NCBI GenBank assembly: GCA_029211085.1
Contig: JARGFW010000012.1
Location: 1-52,681 of the forward strand
Reading direction: 5' to 3'
From: Deferrisomatales bacterium
GTDB taxonomy: Bacteria; Desulfobacterota; Deferrisomatia; Deferrisomatales; JARGFW01
Length of the DNA stretch: 52,681 nucleotides
A model generated the notes under the pieces. That model was not told the origin of the DNA, searched no databases, and saw only the letters and a program-made list of their open reading frames with translations. Below, piece by piece: positions 10,003 through 31,900 of this stretch; the stretch's first letter is position 1; every line of letters begins with the position of its first letter. The translations under genes and the position numbers were made by a program.

Positions 10003-10686
10003 TCAGTCGGCACCTCGAGTCTGCACCTCCCCGATCTTCTTAGCTGGAATTCCTCCCCAGATCTCGTTGGGGGGGATCTGCGTGTCTTCAAGCACCAAGG
10101 CGCTTCCCGCCACCACGGAGTTCGCACCGACCGTGACACCCGGCTGCACCACGGCACGGCCACCGATAAACGCATTCTCTTCAATCACAATCGGCTTCAA
10201 GCTCAGTGTCCCCGGCATGATGGAGTGGGCGGTGATCAGGCACTCGCCGCCGAAAAACGCGTTGTCCTTGGCCGTAATCAGGTACGGTTCGATGAAGCGC
10301 CCCCCGATGGCCACGTTCTTGCCGATCCGAGAACCAAAGAACATGAAGAACGGGGGCCGCAGGAAGATCGGGAGGAACGGCAGGAATGCGGTGCTGCCCA
10401 TCTCGTTGACCGAGGTGTACAACTTCCACACGAAGAACTCCCGACTGTCCATGGAATACGTGCCGGGTCGGAACGGGTGCACCCAAAGCAGGATCCGCAG
10501 GCCGATGCCGGTTATACCCATGTACAATAGCGACCAAAGCAGCACGTCACCCAGCACGTGGTAGGGCCCCATCATGGCTCGGGTAGTCGGCGTCAGAAGA
10601 GACGCACCCCACCAGGCGATGGCCACATTGAGGGTGATCCAAGGAATGGCCACCAGATAGTCGAGAACGCTTGTTTTCAAAGCCAA
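10003..10686 (-). CDS. Membrane-anchored hexapeptide-repeat (left-handed beta-helix) acyltransferase
   Basis: A 227-residue protein with two hydrophobic N-terminal segments (about 10-30 and 45-68) followed by a left-handed beta-helix of hexapeptide repeats from about residue 118 (IGKNVAIGG, VIEENAFIGGRAVVQPGVTV, GANSVVAGSAL) and the closing IWGGIPAKKIGEV typical of hexapeptide acyltransferases. This fold transfers acetyl or other acyl groups, often to sugars or lipids. The membrane anchor resembles that of terminal transferase domains in some peptide-synthetase-like proteins, a weak impression. It converges on the glycosyltransferase gene and could modify the same product or an exopolysaccharide. 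The substrate is unknown. Confidence 0.75.
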   Translation of the reverse strand: MALKTSVLDYLVAIPWITLNVAIAWWGASLLTPTTRAMMGPYHVLGDVLLWSLLYMGITGIGLRILLWVHPFRPGTYSMDSREFFVWKLYTSVNEMGSTAFLPFLPIFLRPPFFMFFGSRIGKNVAIGGRFIEPYLITAKDNAFFGGECLITAHSIMPGTLSLKPIVIEENAFIGGRAVVQPGVTVGANSVVAGSALVLEDTQIPPNEIWGGIPAKKIGEVQTRGAD

Positions 10687-10878: not shown

Positions 10879-11868
10879 CTACTTACGACGGCGCCGCGCC
10901 AAACCTGCCAGCCCCATGAGGCCGGAACCCAGCAGCACCATAGTTCCCGGCTCCGGTACAGCGGAGAGGGGGGTATTGGCATCCGCATTGTAGAGCAGAT
11001 CGCCCGGCACGAAATCGGGGCCCAACACCCCAGCAAAATAGGTGTACGGATCCAGGCCGATCTTGCCACCATCGAGCAACCTGTCATCCAGCGGGTCGTG
11101 CAGCTGAATGGTGGAGGTAATCTCGGTGCCCACCAGCGGCTCCAGGCTGTCCGGATCGGACTGGATGTAGGCTGTGTCGTACCAACTGATGGCACCCCTC
11201 ATTTGCACCGCGTTCGCCGCGCTGCCCGTGCCGAAGATCCCAGAAGTTCCATACAGAGCCGCTTCTAGGAACATATCACCGTCCGTCGCGCCTGCACCAG
11301 TTGCCACATCGTAGTTCATCGCCGTGTCATAGAACCACTTCATGGTGCCATTGACCCCGGTGAAGGCGATAATGTAATTACCAAACAGGGAAGGATCAGC
11401 GACAACCACAGCCGTCTCTATGGCGCTAATGGCAGCAGTGATCTCGAAGTTAGTGTTCAAATCCAATGTACCATCAGCGCCGAGGCCGGTGCCATCCTGC
11501 GCCAGGAAGTCCAGCAGACCGATCTGGGCGTGGATCCCGAAGGACAGCGTGTCGCCCGCCACCCCGAAGTTGGCGGTACCGGTGTTTGCCCCGCCGTAGT
11601 CAAAAAACTCGAACAGGGAGGTGGCACCCGTGGACGAGGACATGTCCGTAACGTTCGGAATGACAAGGTTTCCGGTCAGGCTGTTCCAGTCGAACTCCAG
11701 TGCATCAGTGATGTCATAGCTTCCGTCAAACCCTGTCCCAGTCCCATCGGAACTGAACTGGAAAAAGGTCTGATTGTTGATCGCCAGCGCCGGGGTAACG
11801 CACGCCACCCCCAGCACCGCCAGCGATACGGCGACCCCTCTCAGCAACGCAATCCGTTTCCTTTCCAT
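10879..11868 (-). CDS. PEP-CTERM sorting-signal protein, paralogue of the divergent gene
   Basis: A 329-residue secreted protein. It starts with a signal peptide (MERKRIALLRG then a hydrophobic run ending near TPALA) and ends with a classic PEP-CTERM sorting signal: AVPEPGT, a hydrophobic segment (MVLLGSGLMGLAGLA) and RRRRK. Exosortase is expected to cleave at the PEP motif and anchor or release the protein at the cell surface. The mature part is rich in Gly, Thr, Asp and Asn. AGGAGGAG ahead of the ATG at 11868 fixes the start; a longer upstream frame is rejected. The N-terminal region (QFSSDGTGTG, ALEFDWNSLTGN) and the segment before the tail (ADANTPLS) match the divergent gene at 12546, so the two are paralogues. 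A near-perfect sigma-54 promoter lies 110 bases upstream. The precise function is unknown. Confidence 0.92.
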   Translation of the reverse strand: MERKRIALLRGVAVSLAVLGVACVTPALAINNQTFFQFSSDGTGTGFDGSYDITDALEFDWNSLTGNLVIPNVTDMSSSTGATSLFEFFDYGGANTGTANFGVAGDTLSFGIHAQIGLLDFLAQDGTGLGADGTLDLNTNFEITAAISAIETAVVVADPSLFGNYIIAFTGVNGTMKWFYDTAMNYDVATGAGATDGDMFLEAALYGTSGIFGTGSAANAVQMRGAISWYDTAYIQSDPDSLEPLVGTEITSTIQLHDPLDDRLLDGGKIGLDPYTYFAGVLGPDFVPGDLLYNADANTPLSAVPEPGTMVLLGSGLMGLAGLARRRRK

Positions 11869-11978
11869 CTTCGCGCTCCTCCTTTCCCATCTCATGAGTG
11901 GCACCTCCGTCTTTGCCTGGGTACCCGTTGTCGTGACCACGCACATGGGGCGCTCGGCCCTGTCCTGGCATGTCTTTA

Positions 11979-11994
11979 AGCAACTGCCGTGCCA
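11979..11994 (-). promoter_or_regulatory. Sigma-54 (-24/-12) promoter of the PEP-CTERM gene
   Basis: On the minus strand the sequence reads TGGCACG-GCAG-TTGCT, a complete match to the sigma-54 consensus TGGCACG-N4-TTGCW, 110 bases upstream of the PEP-CTERM start at 11868. PEP-CTERM genes in other bacteria are known to be controlled by a sigma-54-dependent regulator (PrsR) acting at an upstream PEP-CTERM box; no such regulator is in this window. Confidence 0.8.
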
Positions 11995-12450
11995 CTTCCT
12001 TGCACCCCCCCGTATTCGACGGGAAAAGCTGCCATCGCGCGACGTTTATGCGGTTTTTCCCCCATTCTCTCCGATTCGTCGAGGACACCGGTGTTACTAT
12101 TTTTTCCACTATTGGGCATGCCGGAGGAGCAATCCGATGGTCCACGGCGTCACCGGTTTCGCTTGCACTATGGGCCCTGCGGCCGAAGGTCGCCTGTGGG
12201 GGGTGTGGACCTGCGATTCATGCCGCGGTTTTCGGCGCTGGAAGAGGGAGTGGCAACTGCCCAACGGGAGCGGATAGCTCCACCGACATCCCCTTGCAAG
12301 CTACAGATATCTTTGGATATTCGCACGTGGATCACGTTCGGAGAGGTTGGCGTAGTCGGTGCGACTATGCGGGTCGAGGCGGGGAGCCCGTTCCGGCACA
12401 GGTTCCGGGCCGGCTCCTTCGGCAGGCCGATTGTCGCTAGTCACTCTTTT

Positions 12451-12466
12451 GGGCACGCTACGTGCT
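12451..12466 (+). promoter_or_regulatory. Sigma-54-type promoter of the tail-less paralogue
   Basis: GGGCACG-CTAC-GTGCT keeps the invariant GG and GC with ten bases between them and the full GGCACG -24 element; two positions differ from consensus. It lies 79 bases before the ATG at 12546. Confidence 0.65.
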
Positions 12467-12511
12467 TGCGTCCCTTATATTGGACCATGCCTGGGGTGTT
12501 GTTCGACACAC

Positions 12512-12528
12512 GGGGGGGGTTCCCCCCC
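12512..12528 (+). promoter_or_regulatory. G8/C7 hairpin just upstream of a ribosome site
   Basis: Eight G, TT, then seven C form a near-zero-loop palindrome ending a few bases before AAAGGAG of the gene at 12546. In RNA it would be a very stable stem beside the ribosome site and could limit initiation or stabilise the 5' end; the homopolymer is also prone to length change. Confidence 0.45.
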
Positions 12529-12545
12529 AAGAAAGGAGAAGAGTG

Positions 12546-14057
12546 ATGAAGAGAGCGTTCGCTGCAATGACCGGTTTCGTAATGCTTCTGATCCCGTACG
12601 TCGGCGAGGCCACCTTTCAGACAGAGGTGCAGTTCAGTCCCGACGGGCTGGGGCTGATTGCCGGCTACCCCATCACCAACGTGCTCGAGTTCGACTGGTC
12701 CAGCGTGTCGGGAGACATGGTGCTAGTCAACCAGCTTCCGCTTCCGGCGACCGTTCGGAAGGGAACCGCGGGGGAAACCCAGGTCAACACCCTTGTCGAG
12801 TTCTTTGCGCAGGCGCAACTGGGGGACGAGGTGACCTTCGACGCCCATGTGAACACCCGCCTGGGCGCTTTTCTGGGGAATTCCAGCACCGTCTACCCCT
12901 CGGGATACGAAGTGACGGCCGCTGCGAGCTTCCGCGAAACGGGGGTGCTGCTGTCTCCTGGCACACTCCTGTTCCTGGCGATCAGCGGCAACGCAGTGTT
13001 CTTCGTCGACACCGCGGAAAACGCCGTGGTGGAAAGCGGCAGCGGCTTCACCGACGGCATCCCCATTCTCGAAGCTCAGTTTGACACCGTCGACGGCATA
13101 TACGCGACCGGAGGCCCCAGCGCGGTCACCGTGCTGTCCACTGTGACCAACTACGACCCCGCGTTCCTCGACACCGATCCCGCCGCCATGCGGACCCTGA
13201 CCAACGTCTCCATCGTGACTACCATCGAAGACCACGACCCGCTCCAAGACACCCTGGCGCCGGGGGGCACCGCGGGACTTGCCCTGTACACGGTCATGCC
13301 GGCGGATCTCGTGCTGAAGGCCGACGCCAATACGCCGTTTTTCGCTGAGGAAGAAGTGCTGCTGGGGTCCTGCCGGGTTACCGCTGGCGGCAACAAGGAC
13401 GGCGTCTACTGCCCCCTCAAAGCCAACGGCCTGCCGGACACCAAACTCTGTATGGAAGACATCTATCACACCTGGGGAGGGCAAGCAGGCGCCCCGCCGA
13501 CCGTGGACGGGAACTGGACCCACCACTACAAACCCAGCAGCCGGGAAAGTTTCAACTTCCATTCCAACGACCTGTTCTACATCGGCTGCAGCGACCCGGG
13601 CCCCTTCTGCGAACCGGCACGCCCCGCAGACAATCGGCAGATCGACTTCGCCGGCCTTGGCAAGTTCAATGCCACGAAAGGCTCTTTCGAAGCGTTCCCG
13701 GGTGGAGAGGTCTGCTTCATGGTCCACCTGGAAGACCTGGGTGAGCCCGGGCAGGGCGGGAAATGGCCGGTCTCCGTGGCGGAAGGTCTGGATTGCGAGC
13801 ACTGCCCCGGAACACCAGTGGTCAACGGGGATGCCTCGGACCTGACAACTCGAAGTGACTGCAGAGACTGCACCGATTACTACGAAATCCAGATCTTCGA
13901 CAGCCCGGCCAATGACGGACGGGTGTGTCTCGGTAACCGGATCTGGGTAAATGGCCAACCGGACACGGTCCGCTGCGGCGCAGGGGACCCCCAACTTGAC
14001 GGGTTCTTCACCCGTGCCGGCAATGTTCAGATGCACCCGGACAACAACGGCCCGTAA
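12546..14057 (+). CDS. Secreted paralogue lacking PEP-CTERM, with Cys-rich C-terminal domain
   Basis: A 503-residue secreted protein. A signal peptide (MKRAFAAMTGFVMLLIP, cleavage near GEA) precedes an N-terminal ~265-residue half homologous to the divergent PEP-CTERM protein (QFSPDGLGL, VLEFDWSSVSGDM, KADANTPFF). Exactly where that protein has its PEP-CTERM tail, this one continues for about 230 residues with roughly a dozen Cys (for example GSCRVTAGG, CMEDIYHTWGG, CEHCPGT, CRDCTDYYEIQIF). The later part (EDLGEPG, DYYEIQIFD) recalls beta-sandwich domains seen after surface anchors in other bacterial proteins, an impression only. AAAGGAG supports the ATG. With no anchor, the product should be released or periplasmic. 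It is followed at once by a perfect terminator hairpin. Confidence 0.88.
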   Translation: MKRAFAAMTGFVMLLIPYVGEATFQTEVQFSPDGLGLIAGYPITNVLEFDWSSVSGDMVLVNQLPLPATVRKGTAGETQVNTLVEFFAQAQLGDEVTFDAHVNTRLGAFLGNSSTVYPSGYEVTAAASFRETGVLLSPGTLLFLAISGNAVFFVDTAENAVVESGSGFTDGIPILEAQFDTVDGIYATGGPSAVTVLSTVTNYDPAFLDTDPAAMRTLTNVSIVTTIEDHDPLQDTLAPGGTAGLALYTVMPADLVLKADANTPFFAEEEVLLGSCRVTAGGNKDGVYCPLKANGLPDTKLCMEDIYHTWGGQAGAPPTVDGNWTHHYKPSSRESFNFHSNDLFYIGCSDPGPFCEPARPADNRQIDFAGLGKFNATKGSFEAFPGGEVCFMVHLEDLGEPGQGGKWPVSVAEGLDCEHCPGTPVVNGDASDLTTRSDCRDCTDYYEIQIFDSPANDGRVCLGNRIWVNGQPDTVRCGAGDPQLDGFFTRAGNVQMHPDNNGP

Positions 14058-14334: not shown

Positions 14335-16506
14335 ATGAGATTCTTTATTGCCTTGACCTTGGTCCTGGGCCTCTTGGCCTGCGCCAAGACCCCGCAAGAA
14401 AAGGCCTCCGCGCATAATGCCAAAGCTGAGTCCTACCTTCAAAAAGGGCAATGGCGGGAAGCGGTCATCGAACTGAAATCCTCACTGCAGGCGCAGCCTG
14501 ACGACCCGCAAATACTGTTCCTGCTCGGAGATGCGTCCCTGCGTATGGGGCAACCCAAGGAGGCCTACGTTGCGTTTTCCAAGGCGGTCGAACTGGATCC
14601 GGCCCACATCAACGCACAACTGGCACTAGGCAATCTGTTCTTGATCGCTAACTCGCCCGCACAGGCAAGGGATGCGGCAGAACAAGTGCTTGTTCACGAG
14701 CCTGACAACGCCAAGGCACACATCCTATTAGGCAAGGTTCTGATCAGAGGAGGGAACATCGAAAAAGCCATCGTTCATCTCTCTAAGGCGAAAACGCTGG
14801 CCCCTTCAGACCCGACACCGCGGACAGTGCTTGCCACCACGCTTCTGGTGGCCGGCAGGCATGAAGATGCCAGGCGAGAGATTGAAGCATTCTTGGAAAA
14901 CATCCCTGACAACGCGGATGCCTTGCTTCTCTTGGCACAGGTGGCCGAACTCACGGGTGACGAGCAGACAGTTCAAGATGCCTTTGCACGTTTGCGGGCG
15001 GCCGAGCCAGACAACCCGAAGGTGTGGACCGCCTACGGGAATCTCTACTTGACTCGGGGAGAGATCGAGAAGGCACTGCCTGCACTCCAGAAAGCAGCGG
15101 AATTCGACAAGACGGGCACGGGAGGGTGGGAGAAGTTTGCCGAGGTGGCACTACGCCACGGCGATCTGAACGCCGTCCGCATCGCGGTAGAAAAGATGCA
15201 GTCAAGAAATCCAAGAGGCCGAGGGACGGAATTTTACGGGGCCTTGCTTCTATTAGCGGAGGGAAAGACGGATGAGTCCGTAGCGAAACTCCGGGAAATG
15301 TTGAAAGAAGCCCCGGAATCACCTGAAGTTAATTACTATCTAGGATTGGCACTTTTTGAGAGTGGGAACGCAAATCTATCTAAAGAATACATCATAAAAA
15401 GTGTAAGCATACAACCTTCTTCGGATAAAGCACGCATTTTATTGGCAAACGTGCATTTTCAATTACGAGAATATAAGGAATGCATCACAGCTGTCAGTGA
15501 AATGACAAAGTCTGGTTCGATAAACTCTGAGGCGGCTGTTATCGCAGCGGCTTCTCTATATAACATGAATCAGACAGAGCGTGCCGCCAACCTTCTGGAT
15601 AAAGTGCTGGAAGCCGTCCCGAATAACATCCAGGCCTTGGAACTTCTCGCACGCTGCCGCTATCGGACAGGTGCCATTGATCAGTCGGTGGCTATTTTGT
15701 CCAAAGTGCTCTCCCTGCAACCGGAAAATCTCCGTGCCCTTCACCTAGCGGCACAGTTTCTCATGAAATCGGGTAAGATTGCCCAAGCAGCGACGCTGGT
15801 TGAAAGCCATATCGAAAAAAATGGGGAATCGGCCGGGGCGCTGGAAGTTCTCGCCATGGTCCACCTGAAATCTGGCGCCACGGATAAGTCCCGAGAGGCG
15901 GTAGAACAGGCGCTGAAACTGAATCCGAATGCTCCCTACGCCTACATCATCTTGGCACAAATCCATGAACGCGGCGGCGACCCCAAATCCGCCATCGCCG
16001 AACTGGACACCCTGCTCCGGGAAAAACCAAGCTACGCTAGGGGTTGGCTGGTCAAGGCCATGTTGCATGATACTCTTGGTGAGTACAAAACTGCCCAGGA
16101 AGCGCACCGCAAAGCACTCGACATCTCACCCGATCTGGTGCCGGCATTGAATGACCTCGCGGCTAGCCTCACGGATCATGGCGGGAATATTGACGAAGCC
16201 CTCAAGTACGCGGAACGTGCCCTTGAACTTGCCCCTGAATCACCAATAACAAACGACACGCTGGGTTGGATCTATGTTCTCAAGGGGGTCTACCTCAAGG
16301 GGTTGAGCCACCTGGAACCGGCGGCGGAAATGCTGAGCGACAATCCGGTGGTGCTATACCATCTGGCAAAGGCCTACGACGGCGCGAAGGAGCAAGGGAA
16401 GGCGACTGAAACCTACCGGAGGGCGCTTTCTCTCAGCGATGCATTCCCGGGCAGCAAAGAGGCGCGGAAGCGATTGGAGGCGCTCGCTTCTACTCCAGCA
16501 AAATAG
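14335..16506 (+). CDS. prsT: PrsT-type TPR lipoprotein of the PEP-CTERM system (copy 1)
   Basis: A 723-residue lipoprotein made almost wholly of tetratricopeptide repeats. The signal peptide MRFFIALTLVLGLLAC has a lipobox with Cys16, so the protein should be lipid-anchored. Repeats begin near residue 29 (AESYLQKGQWREAVIELKSS) and run to the end (for example YAERALELAPESPITNDTLG near 622-641). The pattern, including the CAKTPQEKA segment after the lipid Cys, matches the putative PEP-CTERM system TPR lipoprotein family PrsT, thought to be a periplasmic scaffold in exopolysaccharide or surface-protein assembly. GGGAGATGA precedes the ATG. A stretch around 15.34-15.56 kb is visibly richer in A and T than the rest of the gene. 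A second PrsT-like gene is at 28.3-30.6 kb. Confidence 0.88.
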   Translation: MRFFIALTLVLGLLACAKTPQEKASAHNAKAESYLQKGQWREAVIELKSSLQAQPDDPQILFLLGDASLRMGQPKEAYVAFSKAVELDPAHINAQLALGNLFLIANSPAQARDAAEQVLVHEPDNAKAHILLGKVLIRGGNIEKAIVHLSKAKTLAPSDPTPRTVLATTLLVAGRHEDARREIEAFLENIPDNADALLLLAQVAELTGDEQTVQDAFARLRAAEPDNPKVWTAYGNLYLTRGEIEKALPALQKAAEFDKTGTGGWEKFAEVALRHGDLNAVRIAVEKMQSRNPRGRGTEFYGALLLLAEGKTDESVAKLREMLKEAPESPEVNYYLGLALFESGNANLSKEYIIKSVSIQPSSDKARILLANVHFQLREYKECITAVSEMTKSGSINSEAAVIAAASLYNMNQTERAANLLDKVLEAVPNNIQALELLARCRYRTGAIDQSVAILSKVLSLQPENLRALHLAAQFLMKSGKIAQAATLVESHIEKNGESAGALEVLAMVHLKSGATDKSREAVEQALKLNPNAPYAYIILAQIHERGGDPKSAIAELDTLLREKPSYARGWLVKAMLHDTLGEYKTAQEAHRKALDISPDLVPALNDLAASLTDHGGNIDEALKYAERALELAPESPITNDTLGWIYVLKGVYLKGLSHLEPAAEMLSDNPVVLYHLAKAYDGAKEQGKATETYRRALSLSDAFPGSKEARKRLEALASTPAK

Positions 16507-24341: not shown

Positions 24342-24998
24342 TCAGTCGGGGAGTACCTGTTTCAACTCCGGCAGAAACTCCCGACAAAACGACACCAGTT
24401 CCGCCTGTTCCGTCTCCAGTTCACTGCGCTCCGACAGCGGCATCATGAACCGCACGAGGGAGCCGTCGTTGCGTTTGCGCACCACGGAGTCTACCACCAG
24501 CCACATCTTGGCGGAGTACTCGCTGACGATATTGCGGCCGCGGCTCTGGTACCAGTAGAGCACCAACTGGCGCTGATCGCCCTTGGCGATGAGGTAGCGG
24601 TTGGCCGCAGTCACGCCGCCGTTGAAACCCGGGGTCTCGAACTCCACCCGGTCACTCTTCACCGGCCGCCACCCCGCCCCCGGCAGGCAATGCTTCGGGG
24701 AGTGGATGGTGTCCCCCTCCCGCTGCTGTTCGTAGAACCCCACATAGACAGATACCGCCCTGCCATCGGGCCGCCGGTAGGTGCGCAGCAGGTAGTCTTC
24801 GACCCCCACCGCGTCAACGATCTTCTGTTCCATCTCGCTGCCCCGGCCGCGCCACTCCCCGATCTGCAGGGGTACATCACCCAGGGGCGCCCGGCTGGGG
24901 ACCGCACGTACGTCGGAGAGGAACCGGGTGTAGCCGGCAGTGGCTAGTACCAGGAAAACCAGCAACCAGAGGCGTGCCACACGCAGCGTCGGCATCAT
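24342..24998 (-). CDS. epsI: EpsI-family exosortase-associated protein
   Basis: A 218-residue protein of the EpsI family that accompanies exosortases in exopolysaccharide loci. After an N-terminal membrane segment (LWLLVFLVLATAGYTRFL) come the family features: PLQIGEWRGRG, YRRPDGRAVSVYVGFYEQQR, and DTIHSPKHCLPGAGWRP with the conserved His and Cys; YWYQSRGRNIVSEYSAK follows. The ATG at 24998 overlaps the exosortase stop (ATGA), and AGGAAACG precedes it; a much longer upstream frame lies inside the exosortase gene and is rejected. Expected in the cell envelope; its precise biochemical role is not established for the family. Confidence 0.93.
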   Translation of the reverse strand: MMPTLRVARLWLLVFLVLATAGYTRFLSDVRAVPSRAPLGDVPLQIGEWRGRGSEMEQKIVDAVGVEDYLLRTYRRPDGRAVSVYVGFYEQQREGDTIHSPKHCLPGAGWRPVKSDRVEFETPGFNGGVTAANRYLIAKGDQRQLVLYWYQSRGRNIVSEYSAKMWLVVDSVVRKRNDGSLVRFMMPLSERSELETEQAELVSFCREFLPELKQVLPD

Positions 24999-25861
24999 CG
25001 TTTCCTGGCCCCAACGAACCGCAGCGCCCCGCCCACCAGGAACAGGAGCACGAACGCCACCACGAACACCAGCCAGCCGGAGAAGGTGTGGAAGAAGCCC
25101 TCCGCGGCCTGGGGGCTCACGTAGTGGGTCAGCACCCCGGTGCCTGCAACCCGGAAGGCGTTGGCCGCAATCGCGATAGGCACGGTGGAGAGGACGATCA
25201 ACCCCCGTTTCCACTGCACCGTCTCAGTGAAGTAGGCGTACACCACGCCCAGGGCGAGGAGGCTGAGCAGGCTGCGGATGCCGCTGCAGGCGTCCGCCAC
25301 CTCCAGGGTCTGGCTGGCCAGATGGATTATGTTGCCCTCCCGGAACACCGGCACCCCCAGGTAAAACAGGCTTTCCGTGGCAATGCGCGCTGCAAAGAGT
25401 TTGAGCGGGAAGGCCACGGCGTCGTACACCAGGTACGGCAAGGGCACCATGAAGAGCAGAAACCCCAGTGGGAACGCCGCGACTCGCACCGTCCCCCAGC
25501 CCCACAACCACCACACGCCCCCCCACAGCAGCGTCACCAGGCTGAACCGCTGCAGGAACAACTCCGCGCCCGCGCGGCCCACGATCAGCAGTCCCAGGCT
25601 TCCCACGCAGAGGGCCAGCCCTGACCACAGGCTCGAGTCTCCCTCTCTCGCCGCCTCTGCCAAGGCCACTCGCCGCGTCCAGAGAACGTAACCGCTGATC
25701 AGCGGCACCAAGATGCCGTGGGAGTAGTTCTCGTCTTGGAGCCAGTCCTGCACCATCGGCGGGACAACCCCGGAATACAACGCGGCGACAGCGCCTAGAA
25801 GCACGGCCAGAGGCCACCATTGCAATGACTTTCCGAGATCAATCACGTCGATGGTTCCCAC
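24995..25861 (-). CDS. xrt: Exosortase
   Basis: A 288-residue polytopic membrane protein with about eight helices. Exosortases are proposed cysteine transpeptidases that process PEP-CTERM tails. The three catalytic residues are visible: Cys192 in ADACSGIRSLLSLLALG, Arg237 in ANAFRVAGTG and His258 in FFHTFSGW. The early motif ENYSHGILVPLISGYVLW is also typical. The EpsI gene is coupled through a four-base overlap, a common arrangement. Substrates in this window are the PEP-CTERM proteins at 10.9 and 31.0 kb. Which numbered exosortase subtype it is cannot be decided by eye. Confidence 0.95.
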   Translation of the reverse strand: MGTIDVIDLGKSLQWWPLAVLLGAVAALYSGVVPPMVQDWLQDENYSHGILVPLISGYVLWTRRVALAEAAREGDSSLWSGLALCVGSLGLLIVGRAGAELFLQRFSLVTLLWGGVWWLWGWGTVRVAAFPLGFLLFMVPLPYLVYDAVAFPLKLFAARIATESLFYLGVPVFREGNIIHLASQTLEVADACSGIRSLLSLLALGVVYAYFTETVQWKRGLIVLSTVPIAIAANAFRVAGTGVLTHYVSPQAAEGFFHTFSGWLVFVVAFVLLFLVGGALRFVGARKR

Positions 25862-26322
25862 CGATGTTCAACATCTCGTGCTCCGTTTGACTGATCGCTA
25901 TCCAGTCGTTCCCAAGTTGGACATTCTCACCGGCCCGGCTTCCGCCAACCAATCCCACTAGGCATTGATCCAAATCGCTCCAAAACAACTCTGCTCCGAT
26001 CTGCGCTTGAGCGGCCCTGAAATTTGCCCCATCCACGCAGTATTTGGTCACCTGAGCATCAAGCTTTACGGTAGCACACACTCCCCGGTGGATAAAGCTG
26101 CCAGTGGCCCTGGGACCGCGGTTGACAGCCGTTTCTTGCACGCCCCCACACGCGGACGGCCGTTTACGAAATCAGGTTACGCAAATGGGACCGCGCCAAA
26201 CTGGCTGCCAGTACATCGCTTCCCCAAAAGACGCAATTCGTTAGCGCAGAACCCTGGCCCGGCTACTGCATGTGTGGGGAGTCACCTCCATCCATCCCCC
26301 GCCATACCTAGGAGATTCTTCG
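25862..26322. other. Divergent control region between exosortase and subtilase
   Basis: 461 bases with no gene recognised. It holds a sigma-54-type box facing the subtilase (26255-26270) and that gene's AGGAG ribosome site at 26310-26314. No comparable box was found facing the exosortase. Confidence 0.55.
26255..26270 (+). promoter_or_regulatory. Sigma-54-type promoter of the subtilase gene
   Basis: TGGCCCG-GCTA-CTGCA keeps GG and GC at the required ten-base spacing and differs from the consensus TGGCACG-N4-TTGCW at two positions. It lies 52 bases before the ATG at 26323. Confidence 0.6.
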
Positions 26323-28170
26323 ATGCGTCGAAGCATACTTGCTGCCACCCTCCATCCCCGTACCGGGCCAAATTTCAACTGGCTCGCGGCTCTGGTGGGA
26401 ACCGTGTTGATCACTGCCTGGCTGATCCCCTCGCAGTCCCACGCCAGACCTCTCAATCCACCCCAGAAGTGGGCGGAAGGCCACATCCTGGTCCAGCCGC
26501 GTGCCGGACTGGCCGAGGCGCAGTTCGACACTGTTTTGGCTAGACACGGCGGCCAACGAAAAGGGCAACTGGGGAAGATCGGGGTCCACATCATCGCCGT
26601 ACCAGCGAAGGCCGAAGTAACGGTCGCACAGGCACTGGCGAAACACCCGTGGATCGAGTTTGCGGAGCTGGACCGCCTCATCGCACCAGAATGGGTACCC
26701 GATGACCCCAGTTTCACCAGTCAGTGGCACCTGCCGAAGATCGCGGCACCCGCGGCTTGGGACCTTTCCACCGGCTCCGGCGTCGTCGTTGCGGTCCTCG
26801 ACACGGGTGTGGATCCGGACCATCCAGACCTGGTGGGCAAACTGGTCCCTGGTTGGAATGCGTTCGACGGCAACGACACATGGGAGGACGTTAACGGACA
26901 CGGTACTCAAGTCGCCGGTACCATCGCTGCAGCGACCAACAACACGCTCGGGGTGGCATCCATCGCACCCGGTGCCCTCATCATGCCGGTACGCATCAGC
27001 GGGCTGGACGGCTATGCCTACACCAGCACCATCGCTTCCGGCCTCACCTGGGCCGTCGACCACGGGGCCGACGTCGCCAACATCAGCTACGGGGTAACCG
27101 GCATATCCACTGTCGACAGTGCCGCTGCCTACATGCGAGAAGCCGGGGGCATTGTGGTCGCCTCGGCGGGCAACGGTGGTGGGGAAGTCCTCGCGGGCGA
27201 GGATCCCAACATCATCTCCGTGTCGGCCACCACCAGCAGCGACACCCGCGCGAGTTGGTCCAGCTACGGCCAGTATGTGGACGTTTCCGCCCCAGGAGTC
27301 GGCATTCTTACTACCACCAACGGCGGCGGCTACGCCGCCGTTTCCGGCACCTCCTTCTCCAGTCCGTGCGCCGCGGCAGTTGTGGCACTGATGAAGGCGG
27401 CGAATCCGACCCTGTCTCCGGATCAGCTGGAGACGTTACTGCGGGAAACTGCAGTCGACCTGGGAACCTTCGGCTGGGACGCCTACTACGGAAACGGGCG
27501 GGTCGACGCTGCAGCGGCTGTGGCCGCCGCGTTGGGAGCCCAGGCTGAAGACACCCAGCCTCCCATGGTTCGCATCGACTCGCCCACAGGGGGTACGGTC
27601 TCTAGCACCGTTCCAGTGGATGTGACCGCCACCGACGCAGGGGCGGTCGCCAGGGTGGAGTTGTGGGTCGACGACGTGCTGGATGCGACCGACACCATGG
27701 CACCGTTCAGTTTCGCATTGAACACGGGCGCATACGCCGATGGGCCTCGCGCCCTCATTGCCCGGGCCGTCGATGCCGCAGGCAACACTGCCACATCAGA
27801 CGCCGTCCTGGTGACCATCGACAACGTCCGGGACCCGTTGGACGAGGTGCCCCCGACCGTCGCGATCACCTCCCCCGCCGCAGGAGCGTTGGTTGGTGGC
27901 CGGGTAGAGATCACCGCAGTGGCCACAGACGATGTTCAGTTGTCGCTGTTGGAAATCTTGGTGGACGGCAACCCAATCTGTGCGTCGAATTTCTCCCCAT
28001 TGGGGTGCACCTGGAACGCCCGAAAGGCCTCCTTCGGTTCTCACAGTATCGCCGCACGGGCTTCCGACACAGCGGGCAATCAGGCGGTAAGAGTTGTCGG
28101 CGTGCAGATCGGGTCTGACGAGGAACCGACGAAGACGTCAACCGGGAAAGGCAAGAAACCGCAGAGATGA
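26323..28170 (+). CDS. Secreted subtilisin-like serine protease (S8) with Ig-like C-terminal domains
   Basis: A 615-residue subtilase. A hydrophobic export segment (about 19-40, ending SHARP) is followed by an I9-type propeptide (HILVQPRAGLAEAQFD to about 118) and an S8 domain with Asp160 in AVLDTGVDPDHPD, His193 in NGHGTQVAGT, oxyanion Asn284 in SAGNGGG and Ser344 in SGTSFSSPCA. After about 435 come two Ig-like repeats beginning PPMVRIDSPTGGTVS and PPTVAITSPAAGALV. The C-terminus KTSTGKGKKPQR is basic with no PEP-CTERM tail, so it is probably released. AGGAG nine bases ahead supports this ATG over one 17 codons upstream. A sigma-54-type box precedes it, as for the PEP-CTERM genes. Maturation or turnover of surface proteins is an inference. 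Confidence 0.93.
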   Translation: MRRSILAATLHPRTGPNFNWLAALVGTVLITAWLIPSQSHARPLNPPQKWAEGHILVQPRAGLAEAQFDTVLARHGGQRKGQLGKIGVHIIAVPAKAEVTVAQALAKHPWIEFAELDRLIAPEWVPDDPSFTSQWHLPKIAAPAAWDLSTGSGVVVAVLDTGVDPDHPDLVGKLVPGWNAFDGNDTWEDVNGHGTQVAGTIAAATNNTLGVASIAPGALIMPVRISGLDGYAYTSTIASGLTWAVDHGADVANISYGVTGISTVDSAAAYMREAGGIVVASAGNGGGEVLAGEDPNIISVSATTSSDTRASWSSYGQYVDVSAPGVGILTTTNGGGYAAVSGTSFSSPCAAAVVALMKAANPTLSPDQLETLLRETAVDLGTFGWDAYYGNGRVDAAAAVAAALGAQAEDTQPPMVRIDSPTGGTVSSTVPVDVTATDAGAVARVELWVDDVLDATDTMAPFSFALNTGAYADGPRALIARAVDAAGNTATSDAVLVTIDNVRDPLDEVPPTVAITSPAAGALVGGRVEITAVATDDVQLSLLEILVDGNPICASNFSPLGCTWNARKASFGSHSIAARASDTAGNQAVRVVGVQIGSDEEPTKTSTGKGKKPQR

Positions 28171-28330: not shown

Positions 28331-30628
28331 TCAACGAATCTCCCTGAGAACCTCTCTTGCTCGAACGGCCGGTGGAGTGTCACCCGCCAGGGAGACAACC
28401 TCCTGCAGGATCAACTCTGCCTCTCCCGTTAACCCCCTGGACGCCAGGTTGACCCCCCAGTGGAGCAGCACCTCCGGGTGATCCGAGTAACTCGCCAGCG
28501 CCTCCCGCAAGAACGGCTCTGCTTCGGCCGCCTGACCGGCCCTCTCAAGCGCCCAGCCCAAAGTATCCAGCACCGAGGGGTTCTTGGGCGCCCCAGCGTA
28601 GGCTTCGCGAGCCCAACGCAACGCCTCGTCCACTCTTCCCTGCTCCAGGAGTAGATTCGCCAGGTTATTGGCCGTCTGTGGATCTCCCGGCTGCCAATCC
28701 AAGAGACGTTGGTAGGTCGTCTCGGCGGATGTGAAGTCGCCCCTTTCGCGATAGATTTGGGCTAGCATATTGTAGGCGTCCGGGTGAACGGGGTTCAGGT
28801 TGATCGCCTCTTCCAACTCTACTGCCGCTTTGGGTCCCTCCCCCGCGCCGATGAGCATCGCAGCCCTCAACACCCGCGTCTCCCAATAATTGGATTCGAG
28901 AAGCACGCTTCTATCCAGTGCCCGCTGTGCCTCCAGTCTCTCACCGCCCTCCAAATGGATTCTCGCGATCATGTTCAAGACTCGGGGGTCTTCGCCTTGT
29001 TTCAACTGGTGGTCCTGCAATAATGCGACGACTTCTCTTGCCTGCGACCCACTCTGCAGCAGTACCTTGGCTTCAGCAAAAAGTGGTTCAACGGCTCTTG
29101 GGTTTTGTTCACGCGATTTTCCATAGTACAAACGAGCCTGTTTGAATCGACCGCTAACTTGTTCCACATCCCCCATCAGTTTCAGAACAACAGGGTTACT
29201 GGGGGACTCCGTCAGGATCTCCTGTAGAATTGTTCGTGCCTCGGCGGCATCTCCTCGGTCCAACAAGACTTGAGCCTTTTCCAGACGAATACGGGGGCCC
29301 TGAGCCACACTCTCCGGCAGGGCGTCAAACTGGGCCAAAGCTCCTGCAAAATCTCTTTGAACCCGCAACAGTCTTGCAAACTCAATCCGCGCCAGCACGT
29401 GGTCAGGAACTCGGCGCAGAACTGCCACGTACTCGCGGCGGGCCATTGCCCAGCGGGCTTCCCGCGCCAAGGCTACGGCGTAGAGAAACCGTGTCTCCAC
29501 GCTTAGATCCCCCTTCGCCACCAAGTTTTCCAACACCAAAAGCGCCCAATGCGCCCGCCCGTCCGCCAGGTGGGCGCGGGCCTCGAGCAGACGCGGGATG
29601 CGCCCCGAAGGGTCGAACTTCCGCGCCAGAGGGAAGAACTCGCGGGCTTCGTCCGGTCGTCCCTCGGTGATCAATACATCGGCGAGCACAGCGCCCAACC
29701 CGGGGTGACCGGGGTGTGCATCCTGTGCAACCTCCAACACCTTCCGCGCCTGGGAGGCCGCTCCCAGTTGGAGCAGCAGCCGGGCCCTTTCCAACGCTAT
29801 CGCCGCAGCCGCCTTCGGGTAGCGATCCTGGGCCTGTTCGAGAAAATCCAGGCCCGCCTGCAACTGTCCTTGGCGAATCAACAGCCGGGCCCGCGTCGCC
29901 AAGACCAAGGGTGACTCCGGATGGGTGGTCTCGGCTTCTCCCAGAGCGACCTCCGCGGCCTCGAAGTCACCCGCGCCCATCTGGAGCTGGGCCAGTGCCA
30001 GCCGAAGGGAGATCGCCTGGGGTATCACCTTGAGTCCGGCCTGCAGGATCTCTGCGGCCCGTTCACCTTCACCGCTCCACCCCTCGAAGAGCGCAGCGTC
30101 CAGGTAGATAGCCTCGTCTTGCGATCGCTCTTCGAGCAGTCGTTTCCAAACATTTCGCGACTCTTCTCGCTGGCCCAAGGAGGCCAACGCCCGTGCCTCC
30201 AGGCGGCGGGCGTTCGTCCCGGCGACCGCCTCAGAGGGAACACGCCGGGAGAGGTCCAACGCTTCCGTATAGTTTCCTGACGCCCACAGCAACCCGCCCA
30301 ACTCGACACAGGCCTGCGGGTGGCCGGCCTCCAAACGCAGCAGACGGGCCAATGTTTCCCGATACTCGGTTTGCTGGCCGAGTGCCTCCAGACTCTTGGC
30401 CAAGCCGAACATAGCCTCTGCGTCTTCCGGAAACACCTGCAGCGCGGCCTGGTACTCGATGCTCGCCTCCTGGTTCTGCCCCGCCTCCCGGTAGGTGTCG
30501 GCGCGTTGCCGAAGCTCTCGAGCTTTCTCCGCGGGGTTCTTCGCGCACCCGACGGAAAGCGACAGAATGGCCAGCGCCCCGATCACCGCCACCACCTCGA
30601 ACCACCTAAACGATCTAGTACGATTCAT
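28331..30628 (-). CDS. prsT: PrsT-type TPR lipoprotein of the PEP-CTERM system (copy 2)
   Basis: A 765-residue TPR protein. The signal sequence has a hydrophobic run (VVAVIGALAILSLSVGC) ending in a lipobox with Cys28, then CAKNPAEKA, the same start to the mature protein as in copy 1 (CAKTPQEKA). TPR units fill the rest, for example AINLNPVHPDAYNMLAQIYR and PKNPSVLDTLGWALERAG (LGW also appears at the matching place in copy 1). The two differ a good deal in sequence, so this is an old duplication or independent acquisition. Presumed lipid-anchored scaffold for surface polysaccharide or PEP-CTERM function. Convergent with the subtilase gene. Confidence 0.87.
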   Translation of the reverse strand: MNRTRSFRWFEVVAVIGALAILSLSVGCAKNPAEKARELRQRADTYREAGQNQEASIEYQAALQVFPEDAEAMFGLAKSLEALGQQTEYRETLARLLRLEAGHPQACVELGGLLWASGNYTEALDLSRRVPSEAVAGTNARRLEARALASLGQREESRNVWKRLLEERSQDEAIYLDAALFEGWSGEGERAAEILQAGLKVIPQAISLRLALAQLQMGAGDFEAAEVALGEAETTHPESPLVLATRARLLIRQGQLQAGLDFLEQAQDRYPKAAAAIALERARLLLQLGAASQARKVLEVAQDAHPGHPGLGAVLADVLITEGRPDEAREFFPLARKFDPSGRIPRLLEARAHLADGRAHWALLVLENLVAKGDLSVETRFLYAVALAREARWAMARREYVAVLRRVPDHVLARIEFARLLRVQRDFAGALAQFDALPESVAQGPRIRLEKAQVLLDRGDAAEARTILQEILTESPSNPVVLKLMGDVEQVSGRFKQARLYYGKSREQNPRAVEPLFAEAKVLLQSGSQAREVVALLQDHQLKQGEDPRVLNMIARIHLEGGERLEAQRALDRSVLLESNYWETRVLRAAMLIGAGEGPKAAVELEEAINLNPVHPDAYNMLAQIYRERGDFTSAETTYQRLLDWQPGDPQTANNLANLLLEQGRVDEALRWAREAYAGAPKNPSVLDTLGWALERAGQAAEAEPFLREALASYSDHPEVLLHWGVNLASRGLTGEAELILQEVVSLAGDTPPAVRAREVLREIR

Positions 30629-31036: not shown

Positions 31037-31900
31037 CTAACCCTCTTGTTTCGCCGCAGTTTTCCGCCGCCGGGCCATACCACCGACGCCCAGTAACCCC
31101 GTCCCCAGCAGAAGAATGGTGGCAGGCTCGGGAACGACATTGAGCGGAGGTAGGCTCCCGTCTCCGGGAAGGTTGGGCTGACTCAAGCTGGTCCCATACT
31201 GAAACGAGATATTGCTGATCTTGTCGAGGACCTGACCAGGAGAGTTGAAATCGTAGTCAGCAAGACTGGCTGTCAAGCTAAAGGTGACCGAGTCCTGGAT
31301 TAACGGCACACCACCGGTTACTTTGGCGTTCCCCAGGGTCAAATCGTCGTTTGCTGAGACAATGCCGTAGTTCAGTCCATTTACCGCCCCCGGCGGATCC
31401 AAATCCACGCCGTTGAAGTTCGCGGCCCCGAAAAGGTCCAGCCCTGAGCTGCTGATACCGGACGTGGCTCCCCTGGGCGCACCGGACAGGCCCCCTGCGT
31501 AGGCCCACTCCCCACCGACATTGCCGCCGCCATCGGCACCAAAGTAGACCGTTGACCCGCCCAACAGAGCAGACATGGGATCCAGCACCACATCATTGCC
31601 ACTCTTGTCGGTCAGAGTAAAGAAGACACCCGTAAGGACGGACGAAGGGACGCTGGTGGCATCGCCCAGGCCATCGTCCCCAAACGTTTCCGGCGCGACG
31701 TTGGTCAGGGTTACCATCAACTCCAACACGTTCCCGTTGAACGTCGCCTGGAAATTTGCGCCAGCTTGGAGGATGTCATCCGTTCCGAACAGCGGAACCG
31801 GGTTCGACTCCACGTAGAGCGCCCAGCTACCAACGGCGGTGGTCAAGACAACCCCCAACGCCGCAACCACCAGGTAACACGTCCGTTTAAGCGCCATCAT
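31037..31900 (-). CDS. PEP-CTERM sorting-signal protein
   Basis: A 287-residue secreted protein with signal peptide (MMALKRTCYLVVAALGVVLT, cleavage near WALYV) and a C-terminal PEP-CTERM signal: VVPEPATI, hydrophobic LLLGTGLLGVGGMA and RRRK, followed by an extra eight residues (TAAKQEG end), slightly longer than usual. The mature region is rich in Gly, Asp, Asn and Ser, with FNGNVLELMVTLTNVAPETF and GLGDATSVPSSVLTGVFF segments. AAGGAG lies ahead of the ATG. A sigma-54-type box is 70 bases upstream. Not paralogous to the pair at 10.9-14.1 kb apart from the tail. Function unknown; surface or matrix protein expected. Confidence 0.92.
   Translation of the reverse strand: MMALKRTCYLVVAALGVVLTTAVGSWALYVESNPVPLFGTDDILQAGANFQATFNGNVLELMVTLTNVAPETFGDDGLGDATSVPSSVLTGVFFTLTDKSGNDVVLDPMSALLGGSTVYFGADGGGNVGGEWAYAGGLSGAPRGATSGISSSGLDLFGAANFNGVDLDPPGAVNGLNYGIVSANDDLTLGNAKVTGGVPLIQDSVTFSLTASLADYDFNSPGQVLDKISNISFQYGTSLSQPNLPGDGSLPPLNVVPEPATILLLGTGLLGVGGMARRRKTAAKQEG

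Follow-up and report, generated by a model that had tools for sequence, protein, structure and literature searches.

The PEP-CTERM tail normally serves to sort proteins to the cell surface. Here we describe a pair of divergent genes from a Deferrisomatales bacterium (phylum Desulfobacterota) that encode one module twice, once with a PEP-CTERM tail and once with a cysteine (Cys)-containing C-terminal domain in its place; the stretch of DNA analysed, hereafter the window, is the forward strand of contig JARGFW010000012.1 of assembly GCA_029211085.1, positions 1 to 52,681 (52,681 nucleotides, nt). Among the closest described systems is the flocculation-associated PEP-CTERM protein PepA of Aquincola tertiaricarbonis: its gene pepA sits upstream of prsT, depends on RpoN1 and, when overexpressed, makes more of the exopolysaccharide cell-bound and less of it soluble (PMC9850573). 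The window's PEP-CTERM protein matches the PepA family model (NF033554) over its whole length at 69.3 bits, and its gene is close to prsT and preceded by a −24/−12 site; the protein differs in scoring under 80 and in having a partner that carries the Cys domain as an extra domain and no sorting tail. Because both window proteins fall below the cut-off of this model, we call them 'PepA-like' only. The consulted parts of the Aquincola paper describe no Cys-tailed partner (PMC9850573).

For proteobacterial PEP-CTERM genes, −24/−12 sites have been reported together with PrsK, PrsR and PrsT, and the same paper mentions homologous pairs, one member with and one without PEP-CTERM, whose homology stops at the module (Haft et al. 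2006, PMC1569441). It gives these pairs a single sentence, which serves to define tail length, and neither a replacement domain that recurs, nor matched pairs of neighbours, nor shuffling of C- and N-terminal parts is described in its consulted sections. No description of the Cys replacement domain or of matched pairs was found in the portions searched of the open-licence PMC literature either. Homologous pairs with and without PEP-CTERM have been known since 2006, whereas the recurring replacement domain and the matching of modules look new. In the window and its counterparts we find a shared module under opposite tails, a conserved gene neighbourhood, promoter-like sites, and a recurrence in which the N-terminal modules (N-modules) of the partners match. 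We propose, with slightly better than even confidence, that the products of the two genes are a surface-fixed and a secreted matrix protein that form a matched pair, are probably co-expressed and, through their one shared module, would link cells to matrix.

One module with two tails

The two genes and the parts of their products (lengths in amino acids, aa) are as follows.
10879..11868, minus strand: PepA-like PEP-CTERM protein, 329 aa, with signal peptide, module at about residues 30-300 and PEP-CTERM tail
10882..10962, minus strand: PEP-CTERM sorting tail, residues 303-329 (PF07589, 29.6 against a cut-off of 20.7; TIGR02595, 26 against 16)
12546..14057, plus strand: Cys-tailed PepA-like paralogue, 503 aa, without PEP-CTERM (BLASTP, Pfam, NCBIfam and hydrophobicity)
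12612..13340, plus strand: N-module common to both partners, residues 23-265 (BLASTP; HMMER match 23-275)
13371..14054, plus strand: C-terminal domain, residues 276-503 (homologues and alignment; 12 Cys here, 6 in most members)

The pair is transcribed divergently, as the initial annotation had described, and its claim that the proteins are homologous up to ADANTP and then diverge is borne out by BLASTP (35% identity over 291 aa, E 3e-36, with the alignment extending through ADANTP). The shared part of the 503-aa protein stops at about residue 265 and leaves a remainder of roughly 235 aa (about 266-503), in which the homology domain begins at C276 and spans 228 aa with 12 Cys, close to the Cys-rich region of some 230 residues first noticed. 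The longest frame opens with a GTG, but the start of the Cys-tailed gene is the ATG at 12546, with AGGAGA ahead of it at 12533-12538. Judged by the PEP motif, the hydrophobic helix and the basic end that characterize a PEP-CTERM tail, the two C-termini are opposites: neither Pfam nor NCBIfam gives a PEP-CTERM match for the 503-aa protein, and its best C-terminal 15-residue hydrophobicity mean is −0.04, versus 1.88 in the PEP-CTERM protein. The region after the shared module in the 503-aa protein has no meaningful Pfam or NCBIfam match. In the window's genome (a draft of 470 contigs with an estimated contamination of 8.5%), the shared module occurs only in these two copies, and all further matches involve nothing but the PEP-CTERM tail. 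The structural model of the PEP-CTERM protein (mean predicted local distance difference test (pLDDT) 67, predicted template modelling score (pTM) 0.66) is mostly beta; Foldseek found no PDB match for it at E <= 0.001, its best VIA-align Z of 7.7, to small beta-barrel cyclases, is too low to call a relationship, and sequence searches of the PDB gave no useful match.

Recurrence of the Cys domain opposite PEP-CTERM partners

The Cys domain, for which a search outside the window had been proposed at the outset, is carried opposite a PEP-CTERM partner by 10 other proteins, on three unrelated N-modules. Two peptide patterns scanned across the contigs of 84,980 species led to nine loci, namely three in Marinobacterium, three in Aromatoleum, and one each in a delta-proteobacterial, an Ectothiorhodospiraceae and a planctomycete metagenome-assembled genome, the last with its N-part cut off; locus L032 comprises the C-domain only (contig end), and genomes G324 and G342 were added as carriers via genome searches. 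A profile of the Cys domain matched 4 of 395 genomes of the window's phylum, all four with an exosortase, and 1 of 398 genomes of the phylum of A. toluolicum, which was A. toluolicum itself. The domain is rare, corresponds to no named Pfam or NCBIfam family, and had no match in the plasmid records searched.

Eleven Cys-tailed proteins have a complete N-part (window, L024, L025, L030, L031, L033, L034, L035, L036, L037 and L038), and all 11 have a PEP-CTERM partner with the same module in their own genome. The partner lies at most 5 kb away in eight cases (window, L030, L031, L033, L034, L036, L037 and L038); that of L038 is split by a contig end, its PEP-CTERM half opening another contig with the same residues, and in G009 it is on another contig, at 34% identity. 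Across 11 pairs compared by BLASTP, three of them with the other kind of tail discussed below, partner identity is 31-46%, and in seven (L030, L031, L033, L034, L037, L108 and L113) the alternative-tail gene stands in tandem behind the PEP-CTERM gene. The sample behind these counts is small and includes several close kin (Marinobacterium; G324/G342). The N-modules bearing the Cys domain are PepA-like, EDSAP-1 and DUF4114-like, each with its own PEP-CTERM partner. At L036 the partners score 167.3 and 129.2 against the EDSAP-1 model (NF041538), both above its cut-off of 100, so that the same tail swap is seen on another module, one without similarity to that of the window; in G009 the N-part resembles DUF4114, with a weak score short of the cut-off. 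L035 and L036 have N-parts unlike each other and unlike the window's, and C-domains that are 62% identical.

Alignment of 12 members showed six Cys to be family-wide; most members have exactly six, L036 has 8 and the window 12, and 'Cys-rich' mostly describes the window's copy. The window's domain retains the six conserved Cys and the CRxT.GG, GGQ, GxW.H and QxH motifs, to which it adds six further Cys. The position of the domain is always C-terminal, and most members share the conserved ending GGNxQIHPxTGFD. Identity with the post-COAP-1 domain (NF041523) was considered and rejected: 5 of the 12 members show a weak local match (lowest E 0.011; some 20 residues around DLGEPG), but the best score is 16.2 bits against a cut-off of 40 and there is no full-length match. 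When 59 genomes from the window's phylum were searched for post-COAP-1, no match came up, in a setting where no positive control gave a signal.

A different tail, built of SdrC/SdrD-like repeats and DUF11, stands in for the Cys domain in G324, G342 and G001, where the partner is again a PEP-CTERM protein. Such tails, SdrC/SdrD-like B repeats with DUF11 and not the Cys domain, were seen at L113 (4094-7701), L108 (5626-8782) and L109 (4790-10827) on a PepA-like module adjoining a PEP-CTERM partner with the same N-module. An ending like LDDYNxGxLCAP is present in L113 and in one L109 frame, and L113 adjoins a tetratricopeptide repeat (TPR) protein. At L114 (9276-10468), frames of repeated SIHAPARGAT look like a repeat array read as protein, with a PEP-CTERM gene nearby.

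Phylogeny of N-modules and C-domains

The N-module tree comprised 23 rows, and a second version omitted L114, which forms a long branch and was used in the first tree only, and added the L038 fragment. PEP-CTERM rows with weak or partial similarity (L115, L116, L118-L123 and L127) and pairs with other N-modules (L036, L035/L129 and L113) were left out; in a quick tree with L113 added, its two rows are sisters. On the N-module tree the Cys-tailed type needs five changes, at least four of them forced by well-supported branches, and the possibility that the Cys-tailed proteins form one old subfamily was rejected by the approximately unbiased (AU) test (p 9e-8; p 5e-32 with L114 out and the L038 fragment in). 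The window's partners are sisters in the N-module trees with moderate, not decisive, support (83/81 and 82/71), and partners are also sisters in L037 (97/96, 95/95) and in L038 (87/84; a fragment). Two tail-type groupings tested in the window clade are disfavoured (AU p 0.02, for the window's Cys-tailed protein with that of L037, and 0.014). In Marinobacterium and A. toluolicum the N-modules group by tail type, which indicates that the pair there is older.

The C-domain tree unites L037 with L038 (99/99) and L035 with L036 (100/100), and N-modules of L037 and L038 as sisters are rejected (AU p 2e-6). L037 and L038 represent one conserved locus, in which flanking genes are 71-88% identical, C-domains 56% and N-modules 23%. 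The Cys-tailed N-module in Aromatoleum varies between species just as the N-module of the PEP-CTERM partner does, and the C-domain grouping departs from the N-module grouping both in Aromatoleum and in L035/L036. These trees leave part of the suggested domain replacement after duplication standing: the moderately supported sister relationship in the window and the disfavoured tail-type groupings agree with it, and its form as one local swap is ruled out by the recurrence of the Cys domain together with the N-module and C-domain trees. The tail difference in the window would fit a post-duplication change in this lineage, or a homogenisation of the N-modules, and the trees lack a root that would tell loss of PEP-CTERM from gain of the Cys domain.

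Promoter-like sites and gene neighbourhood

Each gene of the pair is preceded by a sigma-54-like site, scored with a hand-written weight matrix that has no database source.
11979..11994, minus strand: sigma-54-like −24/−12 site TGGCACGGCAGTTGCT, 110 nt upstream of the PEP-CTERM gene (score 19.6/20.1; 0/400 shuffles)
12451..12466, plus strand: sigma-54-like −24/−12 site GGGCACGCTACGTGCT, 79 nt upstream of the Cys-tailed gene (score 13.5; 4/400 shuffles)

At a score of at least 10, such sites precede 23 of 32 PEP-CTERM genes versus 13 of 201 other open reading frames (frames of at least 150 aa at the loci used), and three further PEP-CTERM genes stand just under this threshold at 9.96. Alternative-tail genes in tandem could share a transcript with their PEP-CTERM partner. 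The regulator PrsR passes its family cut-off in 10 of the 13 genomes examined.

Around the pair, the following genes bear on PEP-CTERM sorting or recur beside it.
10003..10686, minus strand: hexapeptide-repeat (LbH) acyltransferase-like gene, adjoining the pair, likewise in Marinobacterium and A. toluolicum
14335..16506, plus strand: PrsT, PEP-CTERM system TPR protein (TIGR02917, 400.8 bits against 312.2)
24998..25861, minus strand: exosortase XrtA (TIGR03109, 224.2 against 208; PF09721, 264 bits)
24342..25214, minus strand: EpsI, exosortase-associated (TIGR02914, 132.1 against 42.8), in a frame overlapping that of the exosortase

The pair is thus flanked by the acyltransferase-like gene on one side and PrsT on the other. 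The window's genome has two exosortases, and the earlier expectation that one partner only bears an exosortase signal holds: the PEP-CTERM protein passes PF07589 (29.6 against 20.7) in a genome with XrtA, and the other has no such signal. Of the two partners, only the PEP-CTERM one is expected to be acted on by XrtA. An exosortase is present in 10 of the 12 genomes examined, among them every one of the nine that encode a PepA-like Cys-tailed protein.

Several further features of the window were recorded. Exosortase and EpsI are two overlapping frames at 24342-25861, and the exosortase frame of several relatives exceeds 500 aa, as expected for a fusion. A subtilisin-like protease that ends in an Ig-like part is encoded at 26272-28170. 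Its gene, with a sigma-54-like site (score 13.55), is possibly part of the same regulon as the pair; proteins of similar length and place occur near the Cys-tailed gene in G324/G342 (L110, 3496-5250; L111, 5359-7113). A second PEP-CTERM protein lies at 31037-31900 (XDD4 family, 152.1 bits against 40; sigma-54-like site 14.1), and a second PrsT-like TPR protein, below cut-off (235 against 312), at 28331-30628.

Proposed role and alternative explanations

In the proposed pair, we infer that the PEP-CTERM partner would be exported via its signal peptide, processed by XrtA and fixed on the cell surface or on its glycan. For the Cys-tailed partner we expect export and release outside the sorting pathway, with its C-terminal domain, probably stabilized by disulfides, substituting for the anchor. 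Because the module is identical in kind in both partners, a common ligand or mutual binding is predicted: surface and matrix forms would bind the same exopolysaccharide or each other, and cells would be tied to the matrix. More tentatively, exosortase matrices may commonly hold matched pairs in which an exchanged module changes in both members, for example as a surface seed and a matrix subunit. With the same reserve we suggest that a dedicated C-terminal domain of the free or cross-linked partner might take the place of the sorting tag, and that a pair might work only with matching modules.

Several observations weigh against a co-expressed, exosortase-dependent matrix pair. An own sigma-54-like site is found in 2 of 14 alternative-tail genes (those of the window and L109), and five of the seven such genes that do not stand in tandem behind a partner are without one. 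In the window's genome the best PrsR match reaches 417.7, short of the 502.6 that the family requires. The PEP-CTERM partner in G324 and G342 is distant, elsewhere in the genome, and an exosortase was not found in 2 of the 12 genomes examined (L036 and L032, both draft assemblies), of which the L036 draft has PEP-CTERM genes and PrsT. The window's own C-domain has diverged strongly, with a branch of 4.8 and 12 Cys against the usual 6, and neither window protein reaches the floc_PepA (NF033554) cut-off of 80, the Cys-tailed one scoring 22.6 bits. The AlphaFold2 model of the 503-aa protein, aligned with 9 relatives, has a mean pLDDT of 41.9 and is unusable, so the N-terminal halves were compared via sequence only.

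The chief rivals to the matched pair are that the Cys domain is another route of holding proteins at the surface and that gene conversion keeps the N-modules alike. If the Cys domain were an alternative attachment or sorting domain, both partners would stay on the surface and none would be released; its invariable C-terminal location, where a sorting tag would sit, its conserved ending and the adhesin-like nature of the other alternative tails (SdrD/SdrC-like B repeats, DUF11) speak for this, but the C-termini of the Cys-tailed proteins are not hydrophobic and end without a PEP-CTERM-style basic cluster, and we consider it unlikely. Gene conversion is a more serious contender, although we would still place it below even probability. 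Under it, one old Cys-tailed gene has stood beside its partner and repeatedly received the partner's N-module by copying, without repeated fusions, as the sister N-modules in the window, L037 and L038 and the conserved locus of L037/L038, with its similar flanks and sister C-domains, would suggest. The partner identity of just 31-46%, however, implies no recent copying, and homologous conversion is unable to place the Cys domain on the unrelated EDSAP-1 and DUF4114-like modules. Conversion in any case concerns the origin of the pattern and leaves the matching of N-modules intact.

It might also be that the partners have no joint function, PEP-CTERM genes duplicating fast, tails being lost or replaced at random and neighbours being recent duplicates. 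Paralogues that expand rapidly, and homologous pairs in which only one member has PEP-CTERM, have indeed been described (Haft et al. 2006, PMC1569441). Such a process fits poorly with the same rare domain facing a matched partner in all 11 cases, and the pairs in Marinobacterium and A. toluolicum, which are old because each type groups with its own type, are still adjacent; we hold this explanation to be improbable.

Significance

The extracellular roles of exosortase-sorted proteins, and the retention of exopolysaccharide in flocs and biofilms, are still poorly known. A recurring matched pair of anchored and unanchored proteins offers a direct, testable idea of where polysaccharide is held. 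The replacement domain also provides a handle for spotting unanchored partners: without PEP-CTERM, these escape searches based on the tag. That unrelated bacteria have repeatedly reached the same pairing suggests a role for it in building the slime around cells.

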